From a virus, in the IMG/VR virus record IMGVR_UViG_3300021964_000489, positions 1 through 25,031 of that record: a DNA stretch of 25,031 nt; one strand, 5' to 3'. A program made the position numbers and the translations under genes. Positions 4,255 through 23,337 of the stretch are shown piece after piece. Every line of letters begins with the position of its first letter. The first letter of the stretch is position 1. The notes beneath the pieces are model-generated. The model searched no databases. It was given only the letters and a program-made list of their open reading frames with translations, and was not told the DNA's origin.

Positions 4255-4271
4255 CAAATATAATAAGAGTA

Positions 4272-5141
4272 ATGGCGAAAGCAATAGTTACTGGAGGAGC
4301 AGGTTTTATTGGGCATCATTTAGTTGACTTATTATTGCAAGAAGGTCATAAGGTAGAGGTGTGGGATGATCTATCAACAGGTAAAATAAGAAGAATCCCA
4401 TTCACAGAAGTATCTTTTAGAAATATAAACTTAATCACTGACAGACTTCCGGACATAGAAGTCGATTGGGTATTTCATTTAGCTTCACCAGTCTCAGTTC
4501 AAGAGTCTATAGAAAATCCTGATAAGTACGAAAAAGGAATATGTGTAGCTACAAGTAGATTAGTGAGTTGGGCATCTAGAAAAAAGGCGAGTAACTTTGT
4601 TTTTGCCAGTACTGCTGCTGTCTACGGAGATAGAGAGGATATTCCTTTTGTAGAAGATTCTAAATTAAACCCTATTAGTCCTTACGCACAGTACAAGCTT
4701 ATAGCAGAACATATGCTAAGTGCATTTAGCGACTTAAACATAAATGTATTTAGATTCTTTAATGTCTTCGGAGAAGATCAACCAAGTACTGGATCATACG
4801 CACCCGCTGTAGCTTTATTCTTAAAACAACATTCAGCTAACGAACCTATAACAATCACTGGAGACGGATCACAGACTCGTGATTATGTATACGTTAAGGA
4901 TATCTGCTCTGCTATGTATAAATCAACACAGGTGGGTAATTCCTCTTACAGTGTTATAAATTTAGGTTTTGGCCAAGAGACTTCTATTACCGATATAGCA
5001 AAAGCTATTTCCGGAAACCTTATTTATATTCCTGCAAGAAAGGAACCTCGACGAAGTTGTGCAGATATAACTGCTGCAAAGAAACAGTTAGAATGGTCAC
5101 CTGTTACATCGATTTTACAATGGGTACAAAAACAAAAATAG
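4272..5141 (+). CDS. NAD-dependent sugar epimerase/dehydratase (extended SDR)
   Basis: This 289-aa protein is an extended short-chain dehydrogenase/reductase of the type that changes nucleotide-sugars, such as UDP-hexose 4-epimerase. The NAD-binding glycine motif GGAGFIG is at 8-14 and the acidic strand-2 end is WDDLSTGK near 31-38. The catalytic region is FASTAAVYG (111-119), followed by YAQYK at 138-142 (YxxxK). DYVYVKDI in the C-terminal half is typical of GalE- and RfbB-like enzymes. The start is the ATG at 4272; an upstream in-frame extension would run through tRNA-Thr and is rejected. The glycosyltransferase starts one base after its stop. The exact sugar cannot be read from the sequence; a role in capsule, LPS or virion glycan synthesis is inferred from the neighbours. 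Confidence 0.88.
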   Translation: MAKAIVTGGAGFIGHHLVDLLLQEGHKVEVWDDLSTGKIRRIPFTEVSFRNINLITDRLPDIEVDWVFHLASPVSVQESIENPDKYEKGICVATSRLVSWASRKKASNFVFASTAAVYGDREDIPFVEDSKLNPISPYAQYKLIAEHMLSAFSDLNINVFRFFNVFGEDQPSTGSYAPAVALFLKQHSANEPITITGDGSQTRDYVYVKDICSAMYKSTQVGNSSYSVINLGFGQETSITDIAKAISGNLIYIPARKEPRRSCADITAAKKQLEWSPVTSILQWVQKQK

Positions 5142-5142
5142 A

Positions 5143-5823
5143 ATGAAGACCTTTGTAATATACCTCAGCGGCAACGAATTTTCAGTTGAGATGACATCTG
5201 ATACTATTGCTTCTTTAGAGAAATTTAATATTGATTACGAATTATTTGATGGAGTAGTAGGTAACGATGGTATTGATGTATTAAAATTATTTAAAGTAAA
5301 TCCTTCAGCATATGTACCTCAATCAGCCTGGTCTGCTGGTACTATTGGATGCTTAGCTAGTCACTATTTACTTTGGGATAAATGTGCTAAACAAGAAGAA
5401 CCTTTTCTAATCTTAGAACAGGACGGAGTGCTTATCCGTGATCCGAGAGAGATTCTTTCTGATGTTAAGAAAGTATGTCACTTAGATGCACATCTACCAT
5501 TTGAAAGCGGGGATAATGAACATTATAAGACGTATAACGCAAATCTAGAGAAGTACGAACCAGGGGTACAGCCTCACCCTAAGAACAGTTTTTACATAGG
5601 AGAAGAGATAACAGGGTATACATTTAGAGGGACTTACGGATATTTAATCACTCCAGAAGGAGCTAGAGATGTTCTAGACTTTATATCAAGACATGGAGCA
5701 TTTCCTTCTGATAAATGTCTATGCATTAGAGCTACAGAGATAGAAAGAGCTAATAGTAGTTATGTAAGATTAAATGAGTTCTTCAGAACACTTAAATTAC
5801 AGAAAGATTTCTCATTAAGATAA
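5143..5823 (+). CDS. GT25-like glycosyltransferase
   Basis: This 226-aa protein resembles glycosyltransferase family 25 (LPS and collagen galactosyltransferases). It opens with a short strand MKTFVIYLSG and carries the family block SAGTIGCLASHYLLW (64-78) and then PFLILEQDGVLI (87-98). The usual metal/nucleotide-sugar motif is LEDD; here it is LEQD, a change worth noting. GYLITPEGARDVL near residue 166 matches the late GT25 motif (AYxISxxGAxKLL). It lies between an epimerase and a sulfotransferase, which suggests a small glycan-building cassette. The acceptor is unknown: it could be a host surface glycan or a virion protein. Confidence 0.78.
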   Translation: MKTFVIYLSGNEFSVEMTSDTIASLEKFNIDYELFDGVVGNDGIDVLKLFKVNPSAYVPQSAWSAGTIGCLASHYLLWDKCAKQEEPFLILEQDGVLIRDPREILSDVKKVCHLDAHLPFESGDNEHYKTYNANLEKYEPGVQPHPKNSFYIGEEITGYTFRGTYGYLITPEGARDVLDFISRHGAFPSDKCLCIRATEIERANSSYVRLNEFFRTLKLQKDFSLR

Positions 5824-5829
5824 AGAACG

Positions 5830-5884
5830 CAGTCAGGTGTCTATCAGTTGAATTACTGAGGAGGAGCTTCGGCTCCTCTGACTG
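5830..5884 (+). terminator. Nested hairpins between glycosyltransferase and sulfotransferase
   Basis: GAGGAGC (5861-5867) and GCTCCTC (5872-5878) form a perfect 7-bp stem on a TTCG tetraloop. CAGTCAG (5830-5836) can also pair with CTGACTG (5878-5884), enclosing the first hairpin and sharing only base 5878. There is no T-tract after it, so a simple intrinsic terminator is uncertain. It might instead be an RNA-processing or stability element. Confidence 0.45.
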
Positions 5885-5898
5885 ACTTAAGATTAGTT

Positions 5899-6564
5899 AT
5901 GATAGTATCACATAAGTTTAAATGTATAATTATACAGCCTCGTAAGACAGCAGGAACATCTTTAACTGAATTGTTTAAGATGATCGATCCTGAGGTAGAG
6001 GAGACTTACGAAGAATACAACCCTCCAGTACCTCCTTATAATCACCAACCAGCATCTGAATGTAGAAAGATTGTCGGTGAAGAGATTTGGAACTCTTATT
6101 ATAAATTTGCTTTTGTACGAGAGCCTTTCAACTGGGTACGTTCATATTATATGCATGAACGGAAAGCATGGTGGTCTAATCAACATCCTACTTACAAACT
6201 AGTAGGAATGACTCTAAGATGGCAACAACAGATCCCTTTAGAAGGTAATATAATCACTCCAGATAATTTTCTATCACTATATACTCTTATGAAGTGGTGG
6301 TACCCTCCTAGAGGAATAGTTGGACAATCCTCGTGGTTTGATGAAGAACTAGATCATATCGGTATATTTGAAAACTTAAGAGATGAGATAAAATTTTTAG
6401 GAACTAAATTGGGATTCGATTACGACTTAATGCCTCATTCAAATAAAAGTAAATCAAACACAGTACAACTACACTCCGATACTTATCAGCTTATAAATGT
6501 ACTATTAAGAGAAGATATAGAGTTCTACGAAAAGTACAGGCTCCTTAGTATTGAACAAAGATAG
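5899..6564 (+). CDS. Sulfotransferase family protein
   Basis: This 221-aa protein carries the two PAPS-binding motifs of carbohydrate sulfotransferases. The 5'-phosphosulfate loop is PRKTAGTSL at 14-22 (family PKTAGTS) and the 3'-phosphate motif is FVREPFNWVRSYY at 72-84 (family RDPxxRxxSxY). It would move sulfate from PAPS to a hydroxyl or amino group, most likely on a sugar, given the epimerase and GT25 genes just upstream. The remainder is rich in Trp and aromatic residues, and its C-terminal part is like the Sulfotransfer_2 family. The length is a little short for the family. A 75-nt gap with nested hairpins separates it from the glycosyltransferase, so it may be controlled separately. 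Confidence 0.82.
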   Translation: MIVSHKFKCIIIQPRKTAGTSLTELFKMIDPEVEETYEEYNPPVPPYNHQPASECRKIVGEEIWNSYYKFAFVREPFNWVRSYYMHERKAWWSNQHPTYKLVGMTLRWQQQIPLEGNIITPDNFLSLYTLMKWWYPPRGIVGQSSWFDEELDHIGIFENLRDEIKFLGTKLGFDYDLMPHSNKSKSNTVQLHSDTYQLINVLLREDIEFYEKYRLLSIEQR

Positions 6565-7965: not shown

Positions 7966-7974
7966 CTATTTATA
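7966..7974 (+). promoter_or_regulatory. CTATTTATA, candidate late promoter element
   Basis: CTATTTATA occurs four bases after the hairpin and 20 bases before the fibre-gene ATG. The same motif follows the matching hairpin at 14155-14181 and also precedes the gene at 21320. Its reverse complement contains the T4 late promoter box TATAAATA, but on the + strand the motif points the other way, so I only propose it as a phage-specific element. Confidence 0.45.
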
Positions 7975-10834: not shown

Positions 10835-13800
10835 ATGGCATTAGGAATTTACAATAACACAGCCAATAACCAATGGTTAGTCTACCACAGTAATGGTAGT
10901 ACATATCCTATAAAATTCTTAATAACAACCACCTCTGGTATATTCAGTGACGGGAGTTATATAAGTGCAGATTTTGGTCTCGCTTCTGGAGCACAAATAA
11001 AGTTGTATAATCCAACTATTGCTAGTGGATCTTTTGAAGCAAAGAGTACGGTAACACTCTCAGCTTTGGATACTTCAGCAGCTGACAATGTTGTGACTAT
11101 AGACGGAAATGGAGCTTTACATTACATTGCAAAGAGCGATCTAGTAGGAGCAGTAACAGTAACTGATTCTTCAGCTAATAATGTACACTACTTAACATTT
11201 GTATCTCAATCATCAGGTAATGCTGATGTATTAGTTGATAGCTCAGACTTAACTTATAACCCATCTACTAACCTGTTAACAGCTGGCAACTTATATCTCT
11301 CAGGAGACTTAACAGTTACAGGTACTAAGACAGAATTGCAAGTTAGCGAGTTAAGAGTAGAGGATAAACTTATAACAGTAGCCTCAGGTTCAGCAACAGC
11401 AGCAGCAGCTGACGGAGCAGGTATCGAAGTAGCTGGAGCAAATAAATCTCTGAAATGGAATAACGGTAACAGTAGATTTGTTATTGACACTGGATTAAGA
11501 GTTGATGATAAACTAAGTGTAGGAAGTGTTTCGACAGATGCTACTAACACGAACTTCTTAGTCTTGGATGCTGCCACAGGAGAAGTAAGACAACGCACTG
11601 GAGGAGCTCAAGGTATACAAGGAATCCAGGGCACACAAGGAGTACAAGGTATACAGGGTACACAAGGTATCCAAGGTATCCAAGGTATTCAAGGACTACA
11701 AGGAGTGCAGGGTATCCAAGGTACCCAAGGCGTTCAAGGTATACAAGGTATCGGATTAGATGGCGCTCAAGGTACTCAAGGTATACAAGGAGAGAGCTTA
11801 CAAGGAGTCCAAGGAGTCCAAGGAGTGCAGGGTGTACAGGGAACCTCTGGTGAAGGTATACAAGGTGCACAAGGTCCTTCAGGAGGAGCATCAGCACAAG
11901 GTACTCAAGGTACTCAAGGTATACAAGGAGTACAAGGAATCCAGGGCACACAAGGAGTACAAGGAATCCAGGGCACACAGGGCATCCAAGGTGTACAAGG
12001 TCTACAAGGCCTCCAAGGAGTGCAGGGTATACAAGGCCTCCAAGGAGTACAAGGAGTCCAGGGTATACAAGGCTTACAAGGCCTCCAAGGAGTTCAAGGC
12101 ACACAGGGTATACAAGGCATTCAAGGTATCCAGGGTCTTCAAGGTATCCAAGGACTTCAAGGTATCCAAGGAGTACAAGGTCTGCAAGGAACAACAGGTA
12201 TTCAGGGAACTCAAGGAGTGCAGGGAGTACAAGGTAGACAAGGTACACAGGGAACTCAAGGTATACAGGGTGTACAGAGCGTCCAGGGTATACAAGGTTT
12301 AACTGGAGCCGGTATTCAAGGTCTCCAGGGTATTGCCGGCTCTACCGGTACAGCAACACCAGGAGGATCTAACGGACAGATTCAGTACAACGATGCAGGT
12401 GTTATGGGTGGAGCTTCTGGATTTACTTGGGATGATGTAAATAGTAGACTTGGATTAGGACAAGCATCACCTTCTAGGAAATTCCATATTAGCGGCGAAG
12501 GAGTACCTATCAGAATGGACTCTACAGAAAACAATGCTATCAGACTCCAGATGATGGGATCTAACGGAAGTGGAGCTGGTATACTATTTGGTACTAAAGG
12601 AACTAATGACTTTGCATTAGAGCAGACAGAAGCTACTACTTCTACCATCAATACAAACCTCTACGTATCTCAATCTGGAGAAATGTACTTACCTCGACTA
12701 GGTGGAGGAACAACCTCTTACGCAGTTTACTTCGACGACTCAACAGGTGAGTTAAGTTACGGAGCAGCAGCAACAGGAGGAGGCTCAACCTCACCAGGTG
12801 GTTCGGATGGACAAATCCAATTCAACAATAACGGGTCATTCGGAGGAGATAGCGGCTTGACCTACGACAATACAAACGACACTCTAACAATAGCGAGTAC
12901 AGCTATTAATCCATCGTTAAGATTCTCTACAGCTTTTCCACCCGTAGCACCTCAACCAGGATTCTTATTTGCTGAATTACAAGCACACTCTCGAACTTAT
13001 TCAAAAGAGGTAGGTAGTGTGCAGTTTCAATTGGACACTACTGCAGGTACTTATTCTGCTACAAACCTGCCATCAAGATTTGTTGTACAGACAGTACCAG
13101 ACGGAACAGCATCTCCCACTACTAAGTTACAGGTACTAGCAAGCGGAAAAGTTAAACTAAATGAGTACGGAGGAGGAAGCTTTACAGGTATAGCAGCTAA
13201 ATGGTTAGCAGTAGATGCTTCAGGTAACGTTATTGAACAAAATGCTCCAACAGGCGGAGGTTCTACAGATTACGTATCAAATGTAACTTTAACCGGAACC
13301 AGTCTCGCCTTTACAGGAGTAGGAAGTGCATTTAACTCAAGCGTTAACATATCATCCGCGGTAGGAGGCGATGCATCAAGAAGAGGGTTTATCAATTCTC
13401 CTGACGATACATTCTATACTGTAGATAGCAACAGTACAGAGGTCGTCATCGGAAACAGTTCTCCAGCAGGTTTAAGTACAATTGACGAGATTAACGGTAG
13501 AACAATCTTAGTTGATCAAGATAATACATATAACGGAACTCTTCGCTTTGGATTTGCATCATGGACCCAAACCTACAGCTCCGGCGGACCAACTGCAAAA
13601 CAGACATTTGAGTGTACCGGGCATAATGTAGGTCAAGATGATTTCAACATAGGCGTATTCCTTCCACAAGGTACTTGGGACCTATATATGACAGGTCATA
13701 ACGAAGGAGGGGGTGACACAGTATCTCAATATCAATCAAATATAAGTATAGGTGCTAGTGGTGCGACTAGGTACTATCCTCGAAGAATTAGACAAGGAGC

Positions 13801-13927
13801 GATGTTTAAAGTATATTATAACTACTTCCATAAGAAGGTAGTGATTTGGTGTTCCAACTGGGATGGATGGCTTACAAACGGTGCTAAGACTGGAACAATG
13901 ACAACTACTACTGCAGATCCAAACTAA
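10835..13927 (+). CDS. Collagen-like tail fibre/virion protein
   Basis: This 1030-aa protein has several parts. Residues 1-255 include the phage-fibre block [21 protein letters not shown] and [14 protein letters not shown], resembling marine T4-like virion proteins. Residues about 257-505 are an almost unbroken Gly-X-Gln stretch (X is Ile, Val, Leu or Thr) with nearly no proline. Two copies of a PGGSxGQIQ(Y/F)N block with SGxT(W/Y)DxxN follow. The C-terminal 120 residues ([20 protein letters not shown], then [11 protein letters not shown]) are unrecognised and could be the receptor-binding tip. The ATG lies 19 bases after the previous stop. It is probably a fibre whose shaft is the collagen-like part. 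Confidence 0.8.
11603..12352 (+). repeat. Gly-X-Gln microrepeat tract (9-nt based)
   Basis: About 80 triplets of Gly-X-Gln are coded by recurring 9-nt units such as GGTATACAA, GGAATCCAG and GGAGTACAA in varied order, with short interruptions ([21 protein letters not shown]). Long open frames appear on several other frames because of the 3-nt periodicity. The tract could change length by slippage or recombination. Confidence 0.85.
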
Positions 13928-14154: not shown

Positions 14155-14181
14155 CGGAAGGGGCCTTGTAGTCCCTTTCCG
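14155..14181 (+). terminator. Hairpin of the repeated hairpin/CTATTTATA module, copy 2
   Basis: CGGAA-GGG pairs with CCC-T-TTCCG across 14155-14181, and the loop (GCCTTGTAGT) is larger than in copy 1. The hairpin, TGTCTATTTATA and most flanking bases match the module at 7937-7974. It separates the fibre unit from the exported-protein island. Confidence 0.65.
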
Positions 14182-14252: not shown

Positions 14253-16181
14253 ATGAAACGTCTATTACTAACATTAATAGCGGTTATGGGCCTATCCGCT
14301 ACATATGCTCAAAACGGGGCCACTGAGGTATTAACACCTCCTTCAAGTAACTCGGCTTACATTCTAGTCGATACTTTATTTACATTAGAAGAGTCTACAG
14401 TAGGGTACACAGAAGTATACCTTCACTTCTCTAATCCAACTGCTGATGCTGTTAAAGCTGTACAGTTCCAGATCAATTACGATGCCACTGCATTTGGTAG
14501 TGCTCAGATCTTTTGGGGACCAACAGCAATAAGTGTAACGGATAAGTATGGTAGCTACTTCGACAACAATGGAGTATTGAATGTTATTGCCTCTTACACG
14601 GGTAACTCTACAACGTTTGATTGGTCGAATGGAGCGATGTTTAAGTTAAAACTAAACAACGCAACAACGTATAATGCAGAGAGTGACTCACTCTTCTTCG
14701 ATCCAACAACAACTTACCAATCAGTTTACACAACGGGTAATGGTATTGATAACGCATTAGGATTAGAGAACTACGGAGGGAACTTCCAACAACCAATCAT
14801 TAACTATCCAATCCACGTTTATAATGTAGACAGCTCAGATGCATTAGGGGTATGGTATTCAGCTTATGCTCGTCATAAAGATAGTACAACAGCAGCATGG
14901 ACGTTAATTGAAGCTGATAGTACAGACTCAGATGGTTTAGCAATTGTAACTACTTCATTAGATACTTCTAAGTATCATTTAAGATTAGTAGGACAGACTG
15001 ATACGATGACTGATGGAGGAGCCTTATCCATCACTGATGCTTACAAACTAGCTAATCAAGCTTCACAGCAAGATACTTTAAATGGTATTGAATGGTTGCA
15101 AGGAGATATCAACGAGAGTGAAGACATCACAATCTCAGATGCCTTTGCAATGTTTAACAGATTAGCTTTATCTCAAACAACGTGGAATAACTTATTCAAC
15201 GGAGTATACAATACTACATTACTGACACCGGATGCTTATGCTCTTGCAGTTCAATCACAATCTACTCCGCTATGGTCACTAGCACCGAGACAGTATTCAA
15301 TTGATACAATTCAGAATGGTAATGATTCAGCAATTGCTTTCTTATATGTTGTAGGTGATGTAACGAATACGGGATACAATAACCCAGCTGTTATTGTTGC
15401 TAAGATGGCTGACTCAACTATAGGTACAGATTACATCTTAGACCCAACAGTTTACATGACTCCTAACCCAGACACGGTAGAGTTTAGAATTCCTAAGTTA
15501 ACGATGACTGCAGACTTCACAATGCAGGTTCCGGTAACGATGTATACTTACGGCAATAAGATTGGAGCCATTCAGATGGGTATTGAGTTTGATACTACCA
15601 TCTTTGAGTTCACGGGTATTGAGACGGGTGAAGCTGTTAGCAAGTGGAACTCTTTATTAACCATCAATGATGGAGAAGTCTTTTGGGCAGGGCATGAGGA
15701 TGCATTGAATCCTTCTTTAGTTGATAATATGACTCAACAATTTGTATTCAACTTTGATGTTAAGGTTGTAAGTGGATGGCAAACATCACCATTAAAGATT
15801 GTACATAAGGCAGCTGGTAGCGAGCATGCTGAAGATTTGAATATTAAGCCTTCACCTAATGATGGTTCGGTAGTAAATAGAATCTCTATTGATCCGGAAT
15901 TGTTAGCATTGATGGAAGGATTTAAAGTTTATCCAAACCCAACCTCAGACTTAATAGGCAATTGGATTGTATTTGAGTACCACACAGAATTAGAGAGTGG
16001 AACGATAAGTGCTAACATAATGGATAACTTCGGTAGAGAGGTTATGAGATGGGAAGATAAGATCTACCAAAAAGGATTTCAACTTCAAGGCTTCACAATG
16101 GAGAGTTTACCAAATGGTATCTACTACGTGAATCTAGTTACAGCAGATAGAAACAAAACATATAAGGTAATTAAAAAGTAA
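14253..16181 (+). CDS. Exported protein with T9SS type A sorting domain, cohesin- and dockerin-like parts
   Basis: This 642-aa protein has a signal peptide (MKRLLLTLIAVMGLSATYA, cut before Gln20). Residues 45-150 form a cohesin-like beta-sandwich (VYLHFSNP, then VKAVQFQINYD). Residues 256-304 resemble a dockerin with two halves, GALSITDAYKL and GDINESEDITISDAFAMFN. A second cohesin-like part lies near 405-545 (IGAIQMGIEFDTTIFEFTGI). Residues 557-642 are a T9SS type A sorting domain: FKVYPNP, then IMDNFGREV, then LPNGIYYVNL and a basic end. In Bacteroidota this C-terminal domain takes proteins through the type IX translocon to the cell surface or medium. In a phage it implies a product delivered by the host's own T9SS. 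It heads the exported-protein island. Calcium-binding positions in the dockerin-like part are partly changed. Confidence 0.87.
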   Translation: MKRLLLTLIAVMGLSATYAQNGATEVLTPPSSNSAYILVDTLFTLEESTVGYTEVYLHFSNPTADAVKAVQFQINYDATAFGSAQIFWGPTAISVTDKYGSYFDNNGVLNVIASYTGNSTTFDWSNGAMFKLKLNNATTYNAESDSLFFDPTTTYQSVYTTGNGIDNALGLENYGGNFQQPIINYPIHVYNVDSSDALGVWYSAYARHKDSTTAAWTLIEADSTDSDGLAIVTTSLDTSKYHLRLVGQTDTMTDGGALSITDAYKLANQASQQDTLNGIEWLQGDINESEDITISDAFAMFNRLALSQTTWNNLFNGVYNTTLLTPDAYALAVQSQSTPLWSLAPRQYSIDTIQNGNDSAIAFLYVVGDVTNTGYNNPAVIVAKMADSTIGTDYILDPTVYMTPNPDTVEFRIPKLTMTADFTMQVPVTMYTYGNKIGAIQMGIEFDTTIFEFTGIETGEAVSKWNSLLTINDGEVFWAGHEDALNPSLVDNMTQQFVFNFDVKVVSGWQTSPLKIVHKAAGSEHAEDLNIKPSPNDGSVVNRISIDPELLALMEGFKVYPNPTSDLIGNWIVFEYHTELESGTISANIMDNFGREVMRWEDKIYQKGFQLQGFTMESLPNGIYYVNLVTADRNKTYKVIKK

Positions 16182-16182
16182 T

Positions 16183-16980
16183 ATGAGCGAACAAGTTAGT
16201 GGACAAGTAGGTAACGATAATGTAGGAGCATCAGCAGAGGCTCATATCGGAACTGAAGTTACAGACTCATCAGTAAGCGCTGGTGTAGGAGCAAGTGCAG
16301 AAGCACATGCAAGTGTAGAGAACGAAGAGCAGATAGGCGATGTAACTATCTCACAAGAGGCACACGCTGATGCAGAAGTACATGCCGAAGCTGAAGCATC
16401 AGCTGGATGGGATGGTAGAAACGCAACAGTAGATGCACATGCAGAAGTAGGAGCATCAGCTGAAGTTGGAGCATCTAACTCAGTAGAGTATGGCGGTGTA
16501 ACTAATACAACTGAGGTACACGCTGGAGCGGAAGCAAAAGCTTATGTTGGAGCCAGCGGTCAAGTAGGTAAAGATGGAGCTGAAGGTCACGCAGGAGCGA
16601 TGGCTGGAGCATCAGTAGGTGTGGGAGCATCCAATGGAACCTATGATGAGAATGGTAATGGTGCTGAAGCTGGAGCAGGAGTATCTGTAGGAGCACAAGT
16701 AGGTGCTGAAGTAGGCGGAGGAGCTACAATGGATGATGGTGTTGCAACAGTAGGTATAGATGGTAAACTTGCATTAGGTGTTGGAGTGGATGTGGATACA
16801 TCAGTAAGTGTAGACACTAAACCAGCCCAAAAGGCAGTGACTAACAGTGCAAATAGCGTAGCCAATACAGTTTCCAACGATACTCACAAAGCAGCTAGTG
16901 CAGTAAGTAATGCAGGAAGTTCTGTATCAAAAGGAGCTAGTAAAACTAAAAAGAAGTTAAAAAAGAAATTTAAACTATAA
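16183..16980 (+). CDS. Ala/Gly/His repeat protein with Lys-rich tail
   Basis: This 265-aa low-complexity protein is built from short alternating steps (GASAEAH, EAHADAEVHAEAE, GASVGVGAS, SVGAQVGAEVGG). That fits a regular beta-roll or stacked-strand shape. The C-terminal 60 residues change to Ser/Asn/Val helices and end in SKTKKKLKKKFKL. There is no signal peptide. Similar AEAHA/GASA repeats occur in the stem part of some polymorphic toxins and in phage structural proteins, but no toxin domain is visible here. It starts one base after the T9SS cargo stop, so it is in the same unit. The role is unknown; scaffold, filament or envelope binding are options. Confidence 0.75.
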   Translation: MSEQVSGQVGNDNVGASAEAHIGTEVTDSSVSAGVGASAEAHASVENEEQIGDVTISQEAHADAEVHAEAEASAGWDGRNATVDAHAEVGASAEVGASNSVEYGGVTNTTEVHAGAEAKAYVGASGQVGKDGAEGHAGAMAGASVGVGASNGTYDENGNGAEAGAGVSVGAQVGAEVGGGATMDDGVATVGIDGKLALGVGVDVDTSVSVDTKPAQKAVTNSANSVANTVSNDTHKAASAVSNAGSSVSKGASKTKKKLKKKFKL

Positions 16981-16984
16981 TAAG

Positions 16985-17368
16985 ATGAAAGAAGAGATCA
17001 AAGAGGGAATGAGTTCCTTGAAGAAAGGTATTATAGGACTTGCTGGAACATTGGTTGCAGCTGGGGGTACTTATATCTCGACTCAATTTAATACTCTATT
17101 AGGTATTGAAGAGGAGAGTGAAGCTCCAACTGAGGTTATTGAAATTATCGAAACTACTCAGAGTAACCAACAAAACGTTAATGTAGCTGGTCCAGAGATC
17201 ATCATTAACATTCCTCAACAACAAGCACCTGCTCCTACTAAAACTATTATTAGAGAGACTGTTAAGGAGGTTCCAGCCGCACCGGTTGAAGTTGTAAAAG
17301 AGAAGCCAGAGACTCCATTAGAGAGAATGCAAAGGTTAAGAAAGGAAGCAGCAGAAAGAAATAAGTAA
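16985..17368 (+). CDS. Membrane-anchored Pro-rich protein (TonB- or i-spanin-like layout)
   Basis: This 127-aa protein has an N-terminal membrane helix at about residues 13-33 (LKKGIIGLAGTLVAAGGTYI). A Gln/Asn/Pro-rich extended stretch follows (IINIPQQQAPAPTKT, then KEVPAAPVEVVKEKPETP), and then a charged helix (ERMQRLRKEAAERNK). An inner-membrane anchor plus an extended Pro-rich periplasmic arm is the layout of TonB and of some inner spanins, although no TonB C-terminal domain is present. It is placed between the repeat protein and the CsgG-like gene and might span the periplasm. No family match is claimed. Confidence 0.68.
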   Translation: MKEEIKEGMSSLKKGIIGLAGTLVAAGGTYISTQFNTLLGIEEESEAPTEVIEIIETTQSNQQNVNVAGPEIIINIPQQQAPAPTKTIIRETVKEVPAAPVEVVKEKPETPLERMQRLRKEAAERNK

Positions 17369-17460: not shown

Positions 17461-18210
17461 ATGAGACATACATTAAGAAAGATATGGCACGGGGTACAAG
17501 TCTTTGCCGTTATAGCACACGTAGCACTTATACCTACAATAGCATATGGTATAATGTTATTATTCAATAGCTGTGCATCATCAATTAGTACTACTCAGTA
17601 TCAAGCTGAGTTCGAAACCTCAGAAGGATTAAACACTCTACCAATCTACACCGGAGAGAGACAGATCGTTCAATTATCAAAGCTGAATGTTAATAAAGAG
17701 CTTTGGGATATGTTCCCAGAGTTGAGAGACAAGAGAGTAGGTTTAGGAGTATCAAATAGAATCATTGAGAACTTCGAGATGACGGGAAGGTTTGCTTATG
17801 CTGAAGAGAAAGAAGCTATTCAGAATCAGATGTTAGATGCATGGGAGACTGAACTTACCGGTATGGGTGATGGTCAGACTAAGCTTAAGATGGAAGGTAT
17901 TGCTTTACCAAAGTATATTGTGTATGCAGAGATATACGACTTCAGTGTCTCATATGGAGAGAATTACAAGAGGGGTAAAGTAGAGATGACTAATACAACT
18001 ATCATGGGGGTACAGATTCGCATGGTTAATGTTGATAACTCACAATACATCGTAGCTTCCGGACAAGGGACGGCAACACAGATTGGTGAGGGTATGTTTA
18101 GAAACCCAACCATGGGCTTTGATCAATCAACAGTTGGTATTGCAACCCAACGAGCTCTAGAAACCGCTACCGTTAATTTGGTTAAGCGTATGGAGCAGTA
18201 TGGATGGTAA
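17461..18210 (+). CDS. CsgG-family outer-membrane secretion lipoprotein
   Basis: This 249-aa protein matches the CsgG fold in order. VGLGVSNRIIENFEMTGRF corresponds to the helix in front of the ERQ-like loop and is followed by EEKEAIQNQM. KYIVYAEIYDF corresponds to the IMVEGSI strand. MGVQIRMVNVDNSQYIVASG corresponds to the NLRVVNVSTGEIL hairpin. ATQRALETATVNLVKRM is the last helix. A long hydrophobic N-terminus ends in LLFNSC with Cys38, a possible lipobox, as needed for an outer-membrane lipoprotein. In bacteria CsgG forms a nine-subunit channel for curli subunits. No curlin (CsgA/B) gene is visible here. It overlaps the next gene by 11 nt. I recall CsgG/CsgF genes reported in SAR11 myophages, but the role there is unproven. 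Confidence 0.8.
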   Translation: MRHTLRKIWHGVQVFAVIAHVALIPTIAYGIMLLFNSCASSISTTQYQAEFETSEGLNTLPIYTGERQIVQLSKLNVNKELWDMFPELRDKRVGLGVSNRIIENFEMTGRFAYAEEKEAIQNQMLDAWETELTGMGDGQTKLKMEGIALPKYIVYAEIYDFSVSYGENYKRGKVEMTNTTIMGVQIRMVNVDNSQYIVASGQGTATQIGEGMFRNPTMGFDQSTVGIATQRALETATVNLVKRMEQYGW

Positions 18211-19711
18211 GAGGAAGATATTAATATTTCTCTTTCTCCTATTAGCTAACTTAGCTTTTGGGCAATCCATTTCGTATACTTATACAGATCCGTGTACGGG
18301 TATACCTAATACAGTAACAGTCAGTTCCCAAGCGGGGACTGTTGTTATGTTTTATGCTGGCAACTATCAATCCTTCACCATGGCTCAATTACAAGCAGGT
18401 GGGTATGAGGCGTGGGTAGCGTCGGTTAATGCAGCAGCACCACCGGGAAGTAATCCATGTGCAGGGAATGCTGGAGCGGTATCGGGTACAACATCAGCCT
18501 CAGTAGGTACGAATGTAACCAATACAGTAACAAATGTAACGGGTGCATTGAGTGTATTAGGTGGGACTACTACAACCTCATCAGGGGGTATGGATGTGAG
18601 TGGGAGTACCGGAGGAAGCTCAAGCAGTAGTTCAAGCAGTAGTAATTCAAATGATAGTGGGAATGACCAAGGGAATGGTGACTCTTCTGGCGATGATGGT
18701 GGCTCTGGTGGTGATGATACTTCCGGGGACTCTGGTACTAATGATGGCGATTCAGGAGGAGGTGACTCAGGTTCTGGTTCTTCTAGTTCTTCTTCTGGCT
18801 CCGGTGACACTGGGGGTGGTAGTTCGGGTGGTGGCTCTTCAGGAGGATCTGGAGGAGGCTCATCAGGAGGTAGCGGCTCTGGAGGAGGCACTTCGGAAGG
18901 AGGCCAAAGCACATCGGGTACTCAGACAGATGGAGGAGGAGACGACTCAAACGGAGGAGCGATAGGAGATCAGAGTATTGAATCATCCTCAGGTGGACAA
19001 TCAGATACTGAATCAGATAGTGACTCAGGAGGTTCTGGAGGAGGTAAAAAGAAGAAGAATGGTCCGAGAGCTAGAAAGGGATCGTTAATAGCCTCAGGTG
19101 ATATGGTTGTAGTTAGGAATGGTTCCGACTATAAGCAAGGAGGTAATGATAACCTCAAGCTCAATGCAGGTATGACTTATGCTAATACAAAACAAACATT
19201 AGCAGCAGGAGCACTCTTAAACTACACCACAGGACAGAATGAGTTTGCAATAACGGGATACGGATCATGGAAAGTTGAGGAGTCTATGCTCGTAGGATCA
19301 AACTCCTTCCTTTATAACGCAAAGCAGCAGACTTGGTTCAATACTGGGAATGTGATGTATGCTTTCAAACAAACAAGGTATACTACGATCTTGCTTGGTA
19401 CAAACTTCTCTTTAGGTAAATTAGGAGAAGAGAACTTTAGTAACTGGTCAGCCCAAGCTGGAGTATTCACCACCTTCAACGGATACAAAGGAGTGGCAAT
19501 AAACTTGATGAGTATAGGTATGTACTCACCTTATACGTTTTTTTATGAGGGTCAATGGTTCAAAGGTGGATTTTTATTAGTACCTTTAACTAGCTTTGAC
19601 TTTAGTGTAACGAGTACATTTAAACTTAATATCTCTACCAGCACAGTATTGTTACAGGGTCAAGGTATATTGAACTTCCAGCTTATGACTGGAACTAAGA
19701 TGTTGTTATGA
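18200..19711 (+). CDS. Exported protein with Ser/Gly/Asp linker and probable outer-membrane beta-barrel
   Basis: This 503-aa protein has a signal peptide (KRKILIFLFLLLANLAFG, cut before Gln22). A small N-terminal part with two Cys (YTYTDPCTGIP, then GSNPCAG) is followed by a Ser/Gly/Asp/Asn low-complexity linker at about 121-292 that ends in a Lys/Arg patch (KKKKNGPRARK). The C-terminal 200 residues show alternating beta strands with aromatic ends (NLKLNAGMTYAN, FAITGYGSWKV, YTTILLGTNFSLG, VAINLMSIGMYS), as in an 8-12 stranded outer-membrane barrel. It starts inside the end of the CsgG-like gene and ends on the ATGA overlap with the next gene. A phage protein destined for the host outer membrane is the simplest reading. 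Confidence 0.72.
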   Translation: MDGKRKILIFLFLLLANLAFGQSISYTYTDPCTGIPNTVTVSSQAGTVVMFYAGNYQSFTMAQLQAGGYEAWVASVNAAAPPGSNPCAGNAGAVSGTTSASVGTNVTNTVTNVTGALSVLGGTTTTSSGGMDVSGSTGGSSSSSSSSSNSNDSGNDQGNGDSSGDDGGSGGDDTSGDSGTNDGDSGGGDSGSGSSSSSSGSGDTGGGSSGGGSSGGSGGGSSGGSGSGGGTSEGGQSTSGTQTDGGGDDSNGGAIGDQSIESSSGGQSDTESDSDSGGSGGGKKKKNGPRARKGSLIASGDMVVVRNGSDYKQGGNDNLKLNAGMTYANTKQTLAAGALLNYTTGQNEFAITGYGSWKVEESMLVGSNSFLYNAKQQTWFNTGNVMYAFKQTRYTTILLGTNFSLGKLGEENFSNWSAQAGVFTTFNGYKGVAINLMSIGMYSPYTFFYEGQWFKGGFLLVPLTSFDFSVTSTFKLNISTSTVLLQGQGILNFQLMTGTKMLL

Positions 19712-20886
19712 TAAAGTATTTGATTTACATATTACTATTCCCAGTAGGAGTCTTTGCACAGAGTGTTTCTTTTGCTACAGTTGGACTACAGGACCTAAGT
19801 GGTATTGATGTGACTGTGGTACATTCTCAGCCCGGAGGACCTACCGGAACTATATCTCAGTTAACAACCGGTATACCAGCTGATAGAGGTCAAGGCACCA
19901 CAACAGTCTTCAGTACATTAAATTCAGATCAAGGCTCAGTTGTGATTAACTTTCCTTCTGGGTACGGACCTATGATAAGTGGAGTAACTTATACAACGGG
20001 TAAGCTTCATGCCAATGCTTGGATGGCATTCCCAACTACAAATTATAATAGCTATGCTAGTTCAGCAGCAGCACCTAATGTACCAACCTTACACTTTACA
20101 TCAGTTAACAATGGATCTACAGACAATAATATGTCTCATGTATCAACTGAAACATACAACGATGCTTCATTAGGGGACGTATTTAGAATTAGATATGAAG
20201 GGAGTTATAAATACAACGTTCAAGGGATCAACACAAAGATTGATATTTACTTTCCAAAGAATAATAACAAAGAGGTATTAGTAGTGTTGAGACAGTTCTT
20301 AGCAGATGGTTCCGGTATAGAGCAGATAGGTTTATCAAACGGATCTATATGGATAGCTCAAAATCAAATAGGTAATGGAAGTTATACAAACGGTCAAGCT
20401 TGGTTGATTGAAAATAGTTTATTAGCCGGAGTACAAGATACATTAGTGACACAGACTACCGGACCTTCTGGCATCTTATCCTTCTCCAATCCAAACAACT
20501 ACAGCTATGAGGTTATAGTTGATGCATCGAACTTTGAGAGTTATATCACTGAAGATGATATGAACTTCTTAATGTATAAGAGAATGTTTCCATCTAGTTT
20601 AGCTTCATGGGATTTTCATATTGTGGACTTTGATGGTGATGAGGTTGTAGGTTATCAAGATGTGAAAGAGATATGGTGGCACTACGATAGTGGTAATCCG
20701 GTATCCGAGAATGCTATCTACAACCAGAGTGAGAAGGATGATATAGAAGTAAATGCTAAATCCTTTAGTTATCACAAGAAGTATCCTCGAAGTGATGTAA
20801 GGAAGTTTAGTAATATAGATAGATTTTATATAGTTACGTTAGGAAAGTTTAGACAATTAACCCCAAATAAAAAGATAACACAATGA
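19708..20886 (+). CDS. Exported protein with a dockerin/EF-hand-like loop
   Basis: This 392-aa protein has a signal peptide (MIKYLIYILLFPVGVFA, cut before Gln18). The body is Ser/Thr/Asn-rich and beta-like, with a long segment resembling a surface-exposed beta-sandwich (GDVFRIRYEGSYKYNVQGIN, then IDIYFP). At 307-319 lies DFDGDEVVGYQDV, a calcium-binding loop in the EF-hand/dockerin pattern, followed by a helix (KEIWWHY). The C-terminus is basic. It begins on the stop of the beta-barrel gene (ATGA) and ends on the start of the next gene in the same way, so the three are translated together. The function is not recognised; a link to the cohesin-like parts of the 14253 product is possible. Confidence 0.72.
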   Translation: MIKYLIYILLFPVGVFAQSVSFATVGLQDLSGIDVTVVHSQPGGPTGTISQLTTGIPADRGQGTTTVFSTLNSDQGSVVINFPSGYGPMISGVTYTTGKLHANAWMAFPTTNYNSYASSAAAPNVPTLHFTSVNNGSTDNNMSHVSTETYNDASLGDVFRIRYEGSYKYNVQGINTKIDIYFPKNNNKEVLVVLRQFLADGSGIEQIGLSNGSIWIAQNQIGNGSYTNGQAWLIENSLLAGVQDTLVTQTTGPSGILSFSNPNNYSYEVIVDASNFESYITEDDMNFLMYKRMFPSSLASWDFHIVDFDGDEVVGYQDVKEIWWHYDSGNPVSENAIYNQSEKDDIEVNAKSFSYHKKYPRSDVRKFSNIDRFYIVTLGKFRQLTPNKKITQ

Positions 20887-21278
20887 TCAATTGCTACGCA
20901 GTAACATTAATTTTAGCTCTATTCTCAGTTCCGGGAGTGAATCCTGATAGAGTACAACTAGGTGCAAGACCTATTGTAGAACAAGTACTACAAGATAAAG
21001 GCTATCCACTATGTGATGATGGAAGTGGAGTAGAGGTAAGAGTCCTAGAGGTAAGGTCTCCAACAAAAGGAATTCAGATAGGACCTTTCAAGATTAAACA
21101 AAAGAAGACAACAGTAGTGACTGAGATTACAGTCAATGGAGAGAAGTTTGTAGGAGAAGGATCAATAAAGACCTCAGCACGTTCTACTATCACTCAGTTA
21201 AAGGATGAGACTATTCCTTTGAACGAGACAGCTTTTTCAAATGCATTGAAATTATCTATCGTTGATGCTCTAGACTAA
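20883..21278 (+). CDS. Small exported protein, beta-sandwich, CsgG-neighbour
   Basis: This 131-aa protein has a short hydrophobic N-terminus (MINCYAVTLILALFSVPGV) that may be a signal peptide. A compact alpha/beta body follows: RPIVEQVLQDKGYPL, then GVEVRVLEVRSPTKGIQIGP, then KTTVVTEITVNGEKFVGEGS and FSNALKLSIVDAL. The pattern (a helix, two long strands, a small helix at the end) recalls small periplasmic accessory lipoproteins of the YajG type, but I cannot name it. It overlaps the upstream gene by ATGA, so it belongs to the exported island and is its last member. Confidence 0.6.
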   Translation: MINCYAVTLILALFSVPGVNPDRVQLGARPIVEQVLQDKGYPLCDDGSGVEVRVLEVRSPTKGIQIGPFKIKQKKTTVVTEITVNGEKFVGEGSIKTSARSTITQLKDETIPLNETAFSNALKLSIVDALD

Positions 21279-21596: not shown

Positions 21597-22298
21597 ATGA
21601 GATTAAAGCAAGGAGATAAGGGAGAACTCGTATCACAGTTACAGAGAGCTATTGGATTAGATGCTGTAGGTGTATACGGACCAAAGACAGTAGCTGGAGT
21701 ACAAGTATTCCAATTTTTAAAAGGACTACCCAATACGGGTATTGCTGACGAGGCAACTTTAAAAGCAGCAGGCATCTTAGGTGGAGCAGTGAAAGAAGAA
21801 AGCAAATCAACTCTAACTGAACTACCTGAGAAACTTTCAGCTAACTTCTCAATGAAAGAGTTTGTAGCATCAAGCACAGCTAAGAGAAAAGGTATTGACA
21901 ACAATCCAAACCTAGAGCATGCAGAGGCAGCTCTTGCATTGTTCGAAAACATTGTACAGCCAGTTAGAGATCACTTTGGCACTTCTATTTTCATCTCATC
22001 AGGATACAGATCATATGCTTTGAATAAGGCAATTGGCGGTTCTCAAACATCTCAGCACAGTAAAGGTGAGGCAGTTGACATTGACATGGATGATAGAAAA
22101 GGTCCAGAGAATGAAGATGTGTTCCACTACATAAGAGAGAACTTACCCTTTGATCAAATGATTTGGGAGTTCGGAGATAGTAAAAGACCTGACTGGGTTC
22201 ACGTTTCATATAAAAAGAACGGACCACAAAGAGGTCAGATTCTAACTGCAAAGAGAAACTCAGCAGGAAAGACTTATTACGAAAACTGGAAAGCATAG
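21597..22298 (+). CDS. Endolysin: peptidoglycan-binding domain plus M15 peptidase
   Basis: This 233-aa protein has an N-terminal peptidoglycan-binding repeat (residues 1-62: LKQGDKGELVSQLQRAIG, then YGPKTVAGVQVFQ) and a C-terminal zinc peptidase of family M15. The M15 signature is complete: SGYRS at 135-139, then SQHSKGEAVDID with zinc ligands His154 and Asp161, and DWVHVSY with His202. M15 endolysins cut peptide cross-links in the cell wall. The protein has no signal peptide and would need a holin, which is found three genes downstream. It starts one base after the upstream stop. Confidence 0.9.
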   Translation: MRLKQGDKGELVSQLQRAIGLDAVGVYGPKTVAGVQVFQFLKGLPNTGIADEATLKAAGILGGAVKEESKSTLTELPEKLSANFSMKEFVASSTAKRKGIDNNPNLEHAEAALALFENIVQPVRDHFGTSIFISSGYRSYALNKAIGGSQTSQHSKGEAVDIDMDDRKGPENEDVFHYIRENLPFDQMIWEFGDSKRPDWVHVSYKKNGPQRGQILTAKRNSAGKTYYENWKA

Positions 22299-22306
22299 GA
22301 TAAGAT

Positions 22307-22918
22307 ATGAGTTATACTAGAGAACAAATCGAAGCAGCAGTTAAAGCAAAAGGGTACAAATGGTTTACCTCAGACAACTACGATGTAAATATTGTAGGAG
22401 TTAGAAACGCTGACACTAACGGAGCAGTAACAAATAAGTTTGACGACCACGTTACTATCTCTTATAAAGATGAAGAAGGTAAATGGCACTTCCACTGCTT
22501 TGATGCAACTACCGATCCAGGTTCACATTGGACTGAGAAGCAACTCTTAAATAAAAATGGAGTAGCAATATTAAAAGAAGGTCAGTACAGAGGTTCTCAC
22601 ATGATCGGCTTACACCAAGGTAAGTACGAAGCACTCAGACAAAAGAAACCTTTAAAGGTATATAGAGACGGAGACAAAGACGGTACTTACGATTTCATTG
22701 AAGAGAACGTACACGAAGGTATCTACGGTATTAATATTCACAGAGCAACAGCCAGACCCGGAGGTAAATCAGTACAGGTAGACAAATGGTCGGCAGGTTG
22801 TCAAGTTATTGCTGCAAGCGACAATTTTAAGTTATTCATGGAGGTTGTAAATAAAGCTGCCAAAGTATGGGGCAACTCGTTTACGTACACATTGATTAAT
22901 TCAAATGACGTTGCGTAA
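22307..22918 (+). CDS. L,D-transpeptidase-like (YkuD-like) cell-wall protein
   Basis: This 203-aa protein carries GINIHRA (His145) and, after a Lys/Pro/Gly-rich link, KWSAGCQVI with Ser162 and Cys165. His plus S-x-G-C is the active-site pattern of YkuD-type L,D-transpeptidases (HG...SxGC), although the spacing is shorter than usual and the upstream beta-domain is unlike classic ones. The N-terminal 60 residues (REQIEAAVKAKGYKWF, then VNIVGVRNADTNG) are not recognised. It sits between endolysin and holin, so it may act on peptidoglycan during lysis or protect it. Its last base is shared with the holin ATG (TAATG). Confidence 0.6.
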   Translation: MSYTREQIEAAVKAKGYKWFTSDNYDVNIVGVRNADTNGAVTNKFDDHVTISYKDEEGKWHFHCFDATTDPGSHWTEKQLLNKNGVAILKEGQYRGSHMIGLHQGKYEALRQKKPLKVYRDGDKDGTYDFIEENVHEGIYGINIHRATARPGGKSVQVDKWSAGCQVIAASDNFKLFMEVVNKAAKVWGNSFTYTLINSNDVA

Positions 22919-23337
22919 TGAAATCTAATACACTTTTCTTAACAGCAGCAGTATCAACTACTATGTCTTTTATTTGCTCTTACTTTATGGAGCTCTACAT
23001 GGGAAATGCAGAGCAATACTTAGCTTTAATTGCTATAGTATTCATTGATGGTTTCTTTGGCATCGCCGCAGGTATCAAAAGAGAAGGATTCCAGACTAGA
23101 AAAGCTGTTAGAGTGTTACAGAGGATAGTTACCTGGGTAGTTTTACTAACAGTTATCCTAATGGTTGAGAGAGGTTTTGCAGGAACAAGTTGGCTGTCTG
23201 AAACAATTATCGTACCTTTCATAGTATTGCAATTAATAAGCGCCCTTAAGAATGCATCTATGGCAGGTTTTATCAAAGCAGAAGAACTCAATCAACTCCT
23301 CGACCGAATAGATAATCACAAGGGCAAAAGAAAATAA
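22918..23337 (+). CDS. Holin of the Phage_holin_4 type
   Basis: This 139-aa membrane protein has four likely hydrophobic segments, at about 7-25, 35-53, 68-84 and 95-110. The conserved block of the family is IDGFFGIAAGIKREGFQTRK, then KAVRVLQRIVTWVVLLTVI (Asp-x-x-x-Gly, small residues, then a Lys-rich loop). The C-terminus is charged and soluble (ELNQLLDRIDNHKGKRK). Holins make the holes through which the endolysin gets out. It overlaps the YkuD-like gene by one base and lies seven bases before the next membrane gene. Confidence 0.78.
   Translation: MKSNTLFLTAAVSTTMSFICSYFMELYMGNAEQYLALIAIVFIDGFFGIAAGIKREGFQTRKAVRVLQRIVTWVVLLTVILMVERGFAGTSWLSETIIVPFIVLQLISALKNASMAGFIKAEELNQLLDRIDNHKGKRK

Follow-up and report, generated by a model that had tools for sequence, protein, structure and literature searches.

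Known type A cargo of the type IX secretion system (T9SS) includes RemA and AmyB, both from Flavobacterium johnsoniae; RemA is a surface adhesin of the lectin type (PMC12618676). Type A CTDs have seven strands and suffice to export foreign proteins via SprA with PorV, after which the cargo is statically anchored or released (PMC12618676). Cargo of this kind has also been described in a cryoconite phage, where three variable genes for T9SS-tagged enzyme/PA14 proteins were found in one phage population and called a unique occurrence (Bellas 2020, PMC7468147), and T9SS domains were mentioned near head genes in a crAss-BACON study. The pelagimyophages and phage Melnitz encode CsgG/CsgF, for which sibling capture or lysis has been proposed and whose function is debated (PMC7029224, PMC9004378). 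Isolated T9SS cargo (Bellas 2020) and CsgG (pelagimyophages, Melnitz) are, therefore, already known in phages.

We analyzed a 25,031-nucleotide stretch of viral DNA (hereafter the window), which is a 25 kb virus contig (IMG/VR record IMGVR_UViG_3300021964_000489), and compared one of its loci to these systems. The protein at the head of this locus, here called the scaffold, resembles RemA and AmyB in having a signal peptide and a predicted seven-strand type A domain. Unlike them, it is phage-encoded in a fixed cassette, has a cohesin/dockerin architecture and is predicted to be secreted. Like the products of the cryophage genes of Bellas 2020, it is type A cargo encoded by a phage and presumably exported by the host T9SS, whereas here one conserved scaffold and a syntenic set of exported genes recur in many phages and in an isolate. 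With pelagimyophage and Melnitz CsgG/CsgF, the locus has in common that a phage encodes a CsgG-fold protein, with small exported partners in the same conserved operon; it differs in its Bacteroidota hosts, in the likeness to CsgG being by fold only, in having no detected CsgF or CsgA/B, and in the linkage of the CsgG-fold gene to a T9SS scaffold and lectins. As in cellulosome scaffoldins, the cohesins are recognized by profile and fold, and a dockerin-like module follows a CnaB-like domain in both scaffold and partners. Here, however, the scaffold is T9SS-tagged and phage-borne, the partners are lectin and PA14 proteins rather than cellulases, the dockerin match is weak and binding is predicted. 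We found no report of the conserved combined cassette in the openly accessible literature, a body that excludes most subscription journals.

Table 1 Features of the window, numbered from its first nucleotide.
Feature	Position	Strand	Description or evidence
Collagen-like tail fibre	10835..13927	+	phrog_5073 8e-46; PF01391 2e-31
Terminator-like hairpin	14156..14179	+	9 pairs, 5 GC; between tail-fibre unit and scaffold gene
Late-promoter-like motif TATTTATAA	14186..14194	+	58 nt 5' of scaffold ATG
T9SS-tagged scaffold (CTD642)	14253..16181	+	Signal peptide, cohesin-like 1, CnaB/dockerin-like module, cohesin 2, type A sorting domain
Sec signal peptide, residues 1-19	14253..14309	+	Cleavage before Q20, Bacteroidota style; read from sequence
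Cohesin-like domain 1, residues 30-185	14340..14807	+	PF00963 E 0.1; model strands 36-191
Middle module, residues 186-400	14808..15452	+	CnaB-like plus dockerin-like F-hands ALSITDAYKL, DINESEDITISDAFAMF
Cohesin domain 2, residues 410-539	15480..15869	+	PF00963 profile; Foldseek to solved cohesins
Type A T9SS sorting domain, residues 559-642	15927..16178	+	TIGR04183, PF18962 above cut-off; seven predicted strands
265-aa A/G/V-rich repetitive low-complexity protein	16183..16980	+	Directly after scaffold; matches in 5/84 sequences, window included
Small membrane protein TM127	16985..17368	+	BLAST matches in 51/84 sequences
CsgG-fold exported protein G249, putative outer-membrane pore subunit	17461..18210	+	AF2 model, Foldseek
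B503, exported, beta-barrel-like	18200..19711	+	Matches in 71/84 sequences
Variable D protein	19708..20886	+	Signal peptide, unique N-terminal half, dockerin-like C-terminal module (hhalign)
Small exported protein E131, last cassette gene	20883..21278	+	Matches in 62/84 sequences
Endolysin, peptidase M15 + peptidoglycan-binding domain	21597..22298	+	PF08291 7e-22; phrog_894 2.5e-39
Holin	22918..23337	+	phrog_199 7.9e-8

The scaffold gene forms an open reading frame from its ATG, encodes a product of 642 residues with a signal peptide, and lies on the + strand exactly where the earlier note had placed it (Table 1). Its N-terminus, MKRLLLTLIAVMGLSATYAQ, reads as the Sec signal peptide characteristic of type A cargo, the peptide itself being MKRLLLTLIAVMGLSATYA followed by Q. 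Among 88 distinct homologues a hydrophobic N-terminus is found in 86 and a cleavage motif in 80, signal peptides having been judged throughout by a heuristic and not by SignalP. The second cohesin domain was matched by PF00963 above cut-off (E 3.2e-9), as was the case for 40 of 44 scaffold members. At a loose threshold (E 0.1) this profile listed two stretches of the scaffold, and hhalign found no homology between the two domains, hence the weaker label of cohesin-like for domain 1. An AlphaFold (AF2) model of the scaffold, built from 37 relatives with a mean pLDDT of 78, was compared by Foldseek to solved cohesins (TMt 0.66–0.75, rmsd mostly 2.7–3.0 Å); the matches comprised cohesins, scaffoldins and also PorU, a T9SS protein. 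Direct sequence comparison of the scaffold, CsgG-fold and barrel proteins with solved structures gave no useful match. PHROGs holds no family for the scaffold or for the scanned cassette proteins between 16183 and 20886, and a marginal match only for 20883-21278. The window and L002 scaffold genes differ by a dN of 0.18 and a dS of about 2.2, indicating strong purifying selection, with an overall dN/dS of about 0.09–0.12. For the sorting domain of the same pair, dN is 0.22 and dS is saturated. The two cohesin-like domains, the dockerin-like middle module and the surrounding cassette go beyond what the earlier note had described.

The sorting domain was matched over all or nearly all of the length of each profile, at the very C-terminus of the scaffold and above both curated cut-offs: TIGR04183 at positions 1–72 of 72 (34.1 bits, cut-off 23, E 2e-8; E 5e-11 in the search of the whole record) and PF18962 at positions 1–74 of 75 (31.1 bits, cut-off 27, E 3e-7). 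The YPNP, FGREV and LPNGIYYV motifs from which a complete type A domain had been proposed are all present, with VYPNP at about residues 558–563, and the domain is indeed complete by both models. The AF2 prediction places seven strands in residues 558–641 (pLDDT about 79–93), the number published for type A CTDs (PMC12618676). Each of the 40 scanned homologues that possess a C-terminus retains the sorting domain, even where overall identity falls to about 25%, and thus the match is not due to chance; the remaining four members of the 44-homologue set are N-terminal halves of a split gene. A search of phage genomes for the domain, as the earlier note had proposed, returned a match above cut-off in all 50 virus records tested over their whole length. 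Exactly one match at the threshold used was found in 44 of these, and four hold a second match above cut-off, a further type A domain outside the cassette (records G011, G024, G029 and G034).

A scaffold homologue without a sorting domain is encoded in L084 (6403-8569), followed by a 123-residue lipoprotein with a sorting-domain-like end (GLYDLVLTDISGTSIKKPLVIKK). Within the scanned set, a 731-residue phage protein from L066 (16021-18216) has a CHU_C type IX signal (PF13585) together with Ig_7 and SprB repeat matches, and is a candidate for a second class of phage T9SS cargo.

We explored the gene neighborhood in two independent scans of virus contigs, one seeded with the 249-residue neighbor protein (196 confirmed relatives, 80 loci kept and examined) and one with the scaffold (345 confirmed, 79 loci kept and examined). 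Many of the examined loci are fragments. Wherever the locus held enough sequence, the scaffold and CsgG-fold genes occur together on the same strand (64/64 scaffold-seeded and 70/70 neighbor-seeded loci, two sets that partly overlap, as some contigs turned up in both scans), and the kept loci of both scans are collinear. Usually the scaffold comes first and is followed by the small membrane protein, the CsgG-fold protein, the barrel-like protein, one to three variable genes for lectin/PA14 proteins and, last, a small exported protein. The 265-residue protein directly behind the scaffold in the window is a lineage-specific insert in this cassette. By the same heuristic, a hydrophobic N-terminus resembling a signal peptide is present on almost every cassette protein, including all 76 distinct members of the B503 family, in which a conserved N-terminus and a G/S-rich linker precede a C-terminal domain judged beta-barrel-like from its sequence.

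The protein at 17461-18210 had no family match, to CsgG or otherwise, in the Pfam/NCBIfam scan, and we therefore name it CsgG-fold and not CsgG. Its AF2 model, from 30 relatives (pLDDT 70), retrieved CsgG in all of the top 25 Foldseek matches against the PDB (E down to 1.2e-8, prob 1.00, TM 0.38–0.50), and the best viral match is a phage protein annotated as CsgG. The assignment is thus one of fold, at moderate model quality. The lipobox cysteine is not conserved, the site reading FNSC in the window and GGC in L002 and being absent in the phage immuto relative, which has a VASAQ cleavage site. Among the exported cassette proteins checked, no curli family match to CsgA/B or CsgF was found.

Comparison of the variable proteins to the scaffold points to how the cassette products may associate. 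Among 34 sampled genes between the barrel-like and last genes, nine matched Lectin_C, seven PA14, two GEVED and one LamG; most encode signal-peptide proteins with exchangeable ligand-binding domains. The C-termini of 16 sampled D proteins aligned to the scaffold middle module with an hhalign probability of 98.6% (E 9e-16), compared with at most 0.3% in ten controls, which included column-shuffled and reversed profiles; the E-values are those of single comparisons. Since the variable proteins share the dockerin-like module of the scaffold, a cohesin-dockerin surface complex between them is likely. Dockerin_1 (PF00404), which matches the dockerin-like repeats of the module weakly, was found in few members (5 of 44 scaffolds, 1 of 34 D proteins), and calcium-dependent cohesin binding is for this reason a guess.

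Next to these metagenomic loci, a protein search of annotated phages retrieved a scaffold relative (29% identity over 95%) in an isolated phage, immuto, whose host is Flavobacterium sp. LMO8 and which is a T4-like myovirus, as its annotated gp20, gp23 and sheath genes indicate. Here the scaffold is split, with cohesin-like domain 1 and the dockerin-like module in ORF14, and cohesin 2 and the sorting domain in ORF15. Both halves carry a signal peptide, ORF15 having its own, and thus both appear destined to leave the cytoplasm. The same split is found in three metagenomic relatives (L063, L079 and L080), and these contigs, together with the ORF15 signal peptide, rule out a sequencing error. On the linear record, about 100 kb separate the immuto cassette from the genes for head and tail. 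The presence of the same cassette in dozens of independent phage contigs and in an isolated lytic phage rules out a chimera or contamination, and the earlier note was right to treat the gene as belonging to the phage.

We also searched cellular genomes. The CsgG-fold profile found four loci only in 84,980 bacterial and archaeal species genomes, and of 399 genomes of one host family 398 lack the gene, the exception being the seed; a single capture of a host gene is ruled out by this distribution of the cassette marker. One of the four loci (L087) lies on a 254 kb contig with content like that of a large phage. Another, a chromosomal-looking Fibrobacterota operon of three genes (L086, 9971-12365), encodes CsgG-fold, barrel-like and small exported proteins with no T9SS scaffold, and is possibly a cellular relative of the pore core.

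The intergenic region upstream of the scaffold contains a terminator-like hairpin, with comparable hairpins in L006 and L014, and a late-promoter-like motif (Table 1), the core of which recurs at 7967, before the tail-fibre gene at 7994. Of 47 scaffold genes, 16 have TATTTAT in the 120 nt upstream, where dinucleotide shuffles predict 2.0. The immuto structural block has this sequence ahead of 11 of its 32 genes (0.9 expected), and the replication block ahead of one of 10. The TATTTATA-type motif is common to tail, head and cassette genes (7967 and 14186 in the window, and the immuto structural block, L168), and it resembles a late promoter of the T4 type in a form suited to Bacteroidota hosts. 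Of 18 regions upstream of the scaffold, only one contains the Bacteroidota consensus promoter TAnnTTTG, at a long distance from the start. Judging from the late-promoter-like motifs, late expression of the cassette is probable. T9SS cargo had seemed out of place in a phage late unit; the late-promoter-like motif agrees with such a unit, but the gene is the first of a conserved cassette and no lone oddity. The accompanying claim that the product is built for export by the host T9SS holds at the level of signal peptide and sorting domain. Phage T9SS cargo had been reported before (PMC7468147).

We propose that the T9SS-exported scaffold gathers phage-encoded ligand-binding partners, with the cell surface rebuilt late and adhesion controlled, an explanation to which we give a little better than an even chance. 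Export, complex formation and benefit are what we infer from the domains, their order, co-occurrence, selection and the promoter-like motif. The scaffold would cross the inner membrane by Sec and then be moved over the outer membrane by the host type IX secretion system, directed by the type A sorting domain. Outside the cell, its cohesins would hold dockerin-like partners, most likely the lectin, PA14 and other ligand-binding proteins encoded downstream, and the CsgG-fold, barrel-like and two small proteins would probably carry or anchor these partners. Since the cassette is probably expressed late, the surface would be rebuilt shortly before lysis, and rebuilding before burst is made probable by the many Bacteroidota viruses that share the same gene set. 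The most likely benefit would be the masking of receptors on the dying cell and its debris, such that progeny are not lost and rivals are unable to adsorb. Against this explanation count the lack of a sorting domain in the D proteins, whose passage over the outer membrane is presumed, the few Dockerin_1 matches, the moderate quality of the CsgG-fold model and a late motif ahead of only 16 of 47 homologues. The LamG-type protein found also outside the cassette in some loci is not decisive for receptor masking. A more specific form, a cellulosome-like adhesive complex with a T9SS-delivered cohesin scaffold and exchangeable lectins exported via a CsgG-fold pore, made late by a widespread class of Bacteroidota phages, we put forward tentatively and at clearly less than an even chance.

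The candidate roles named in the earlier note were to block the adsorption of other phages, to hide the cell surface or to help release; the domain content favors surface scaffolding and glycan binding. Alternatively, the scaffold and lectins could stick infected cells to neighbors or particles, which would bring progeny into immediate contact with hosts. The exchangeable glycan-binding domains and late-type motif suit such sibling capture, which was proposed for the pelagimyophage curli genes (PMC7029224), and a host lectin-type T9SS adhesin exists in RemA (PMC12618676); however, no clumping was observed with phage Melnitz, which carries csgGF (PMC9004378), and we consider this outcome possible but rather unlikely. 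The CsgGF proteins of Melnitz have also been given a suggested role in lysis (PMC9004378), and a release device, in which the CsgG-fold and barrel-like proteins breach the outer membrane with the scaffold as no more than a helper, would fit the frequent position of the cassette next to genes for endolysin and holin. This is improbable, since the window has its own holin and endolysin, the immuto cassette is far from the annotated lysozyme, and a pore needs neither a T9SS-tagged cohesin scaffold nor variable lectins.

It is more improbable still that the scaffold decorates the tail or head of the virion, with the sorting domain as a borrowed fold. Ig-like domains are frequent in phages, and the gene comes after the tail-fibre genes in the window, but in immuto it is remote from the structural genes, and the Sec signal peptides on the scaffold, its partners and both split halves direct these proteins out of the cytoplasm, the site of virion assembly. 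Type A sorting domains are common in Bacteroidota, and the gene might on that account be a recently captured cellular T9SS protein or an assembly chimera. We regard this reading as refuted by conservation, with next to no probability left to it, given the 196 and 345 confirmed virus stretches, the isolated phage, the marker in only one of 399 host-family genomes and the purifying selection.

If our proposal of a phage-built surface is correct, lytic phages take over host outer-membrane secretion late in infection, displaying a scaffold with exchangeable sugar-binding proteins. Phage ecology would then be tied to a secretion system that is specific to Bacteroidota and related phyla, and phages of these hosts could be detected in metagenomes by a conserved marker. 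What a phage gains from remodeling the exterior of a cell about to be destroyed becomes a testable question, for which an isolated phage-host pair exists in immuto and Flavobacterium sp. LMO8.

Further genes were seen in and around the cassette. The left end of the window contains a GroES/GroEL pair (356-2312), and GroEL is also found near the cassette in L054, L059 and L066. Downstream of four tRNA genes in the window (4266-6564) lie genes for a nucleotide-sugar epimerase, which has a phage-family match, a family 25 glycosyltransferase and sulfotransferase-like proteins, a content that suggests surface sugar modification. Finally, an endonuclease-G/NUC1-like nuclease with a signal peptide is encoded within the cassette or next to it in about 15 loci (for example L003 9935-10513, L054 13253-13837, L056 9677-10261 and L066 13167-13748), and, once secreted, might destroy the injected DNA of rival phages or extracellular DNA.
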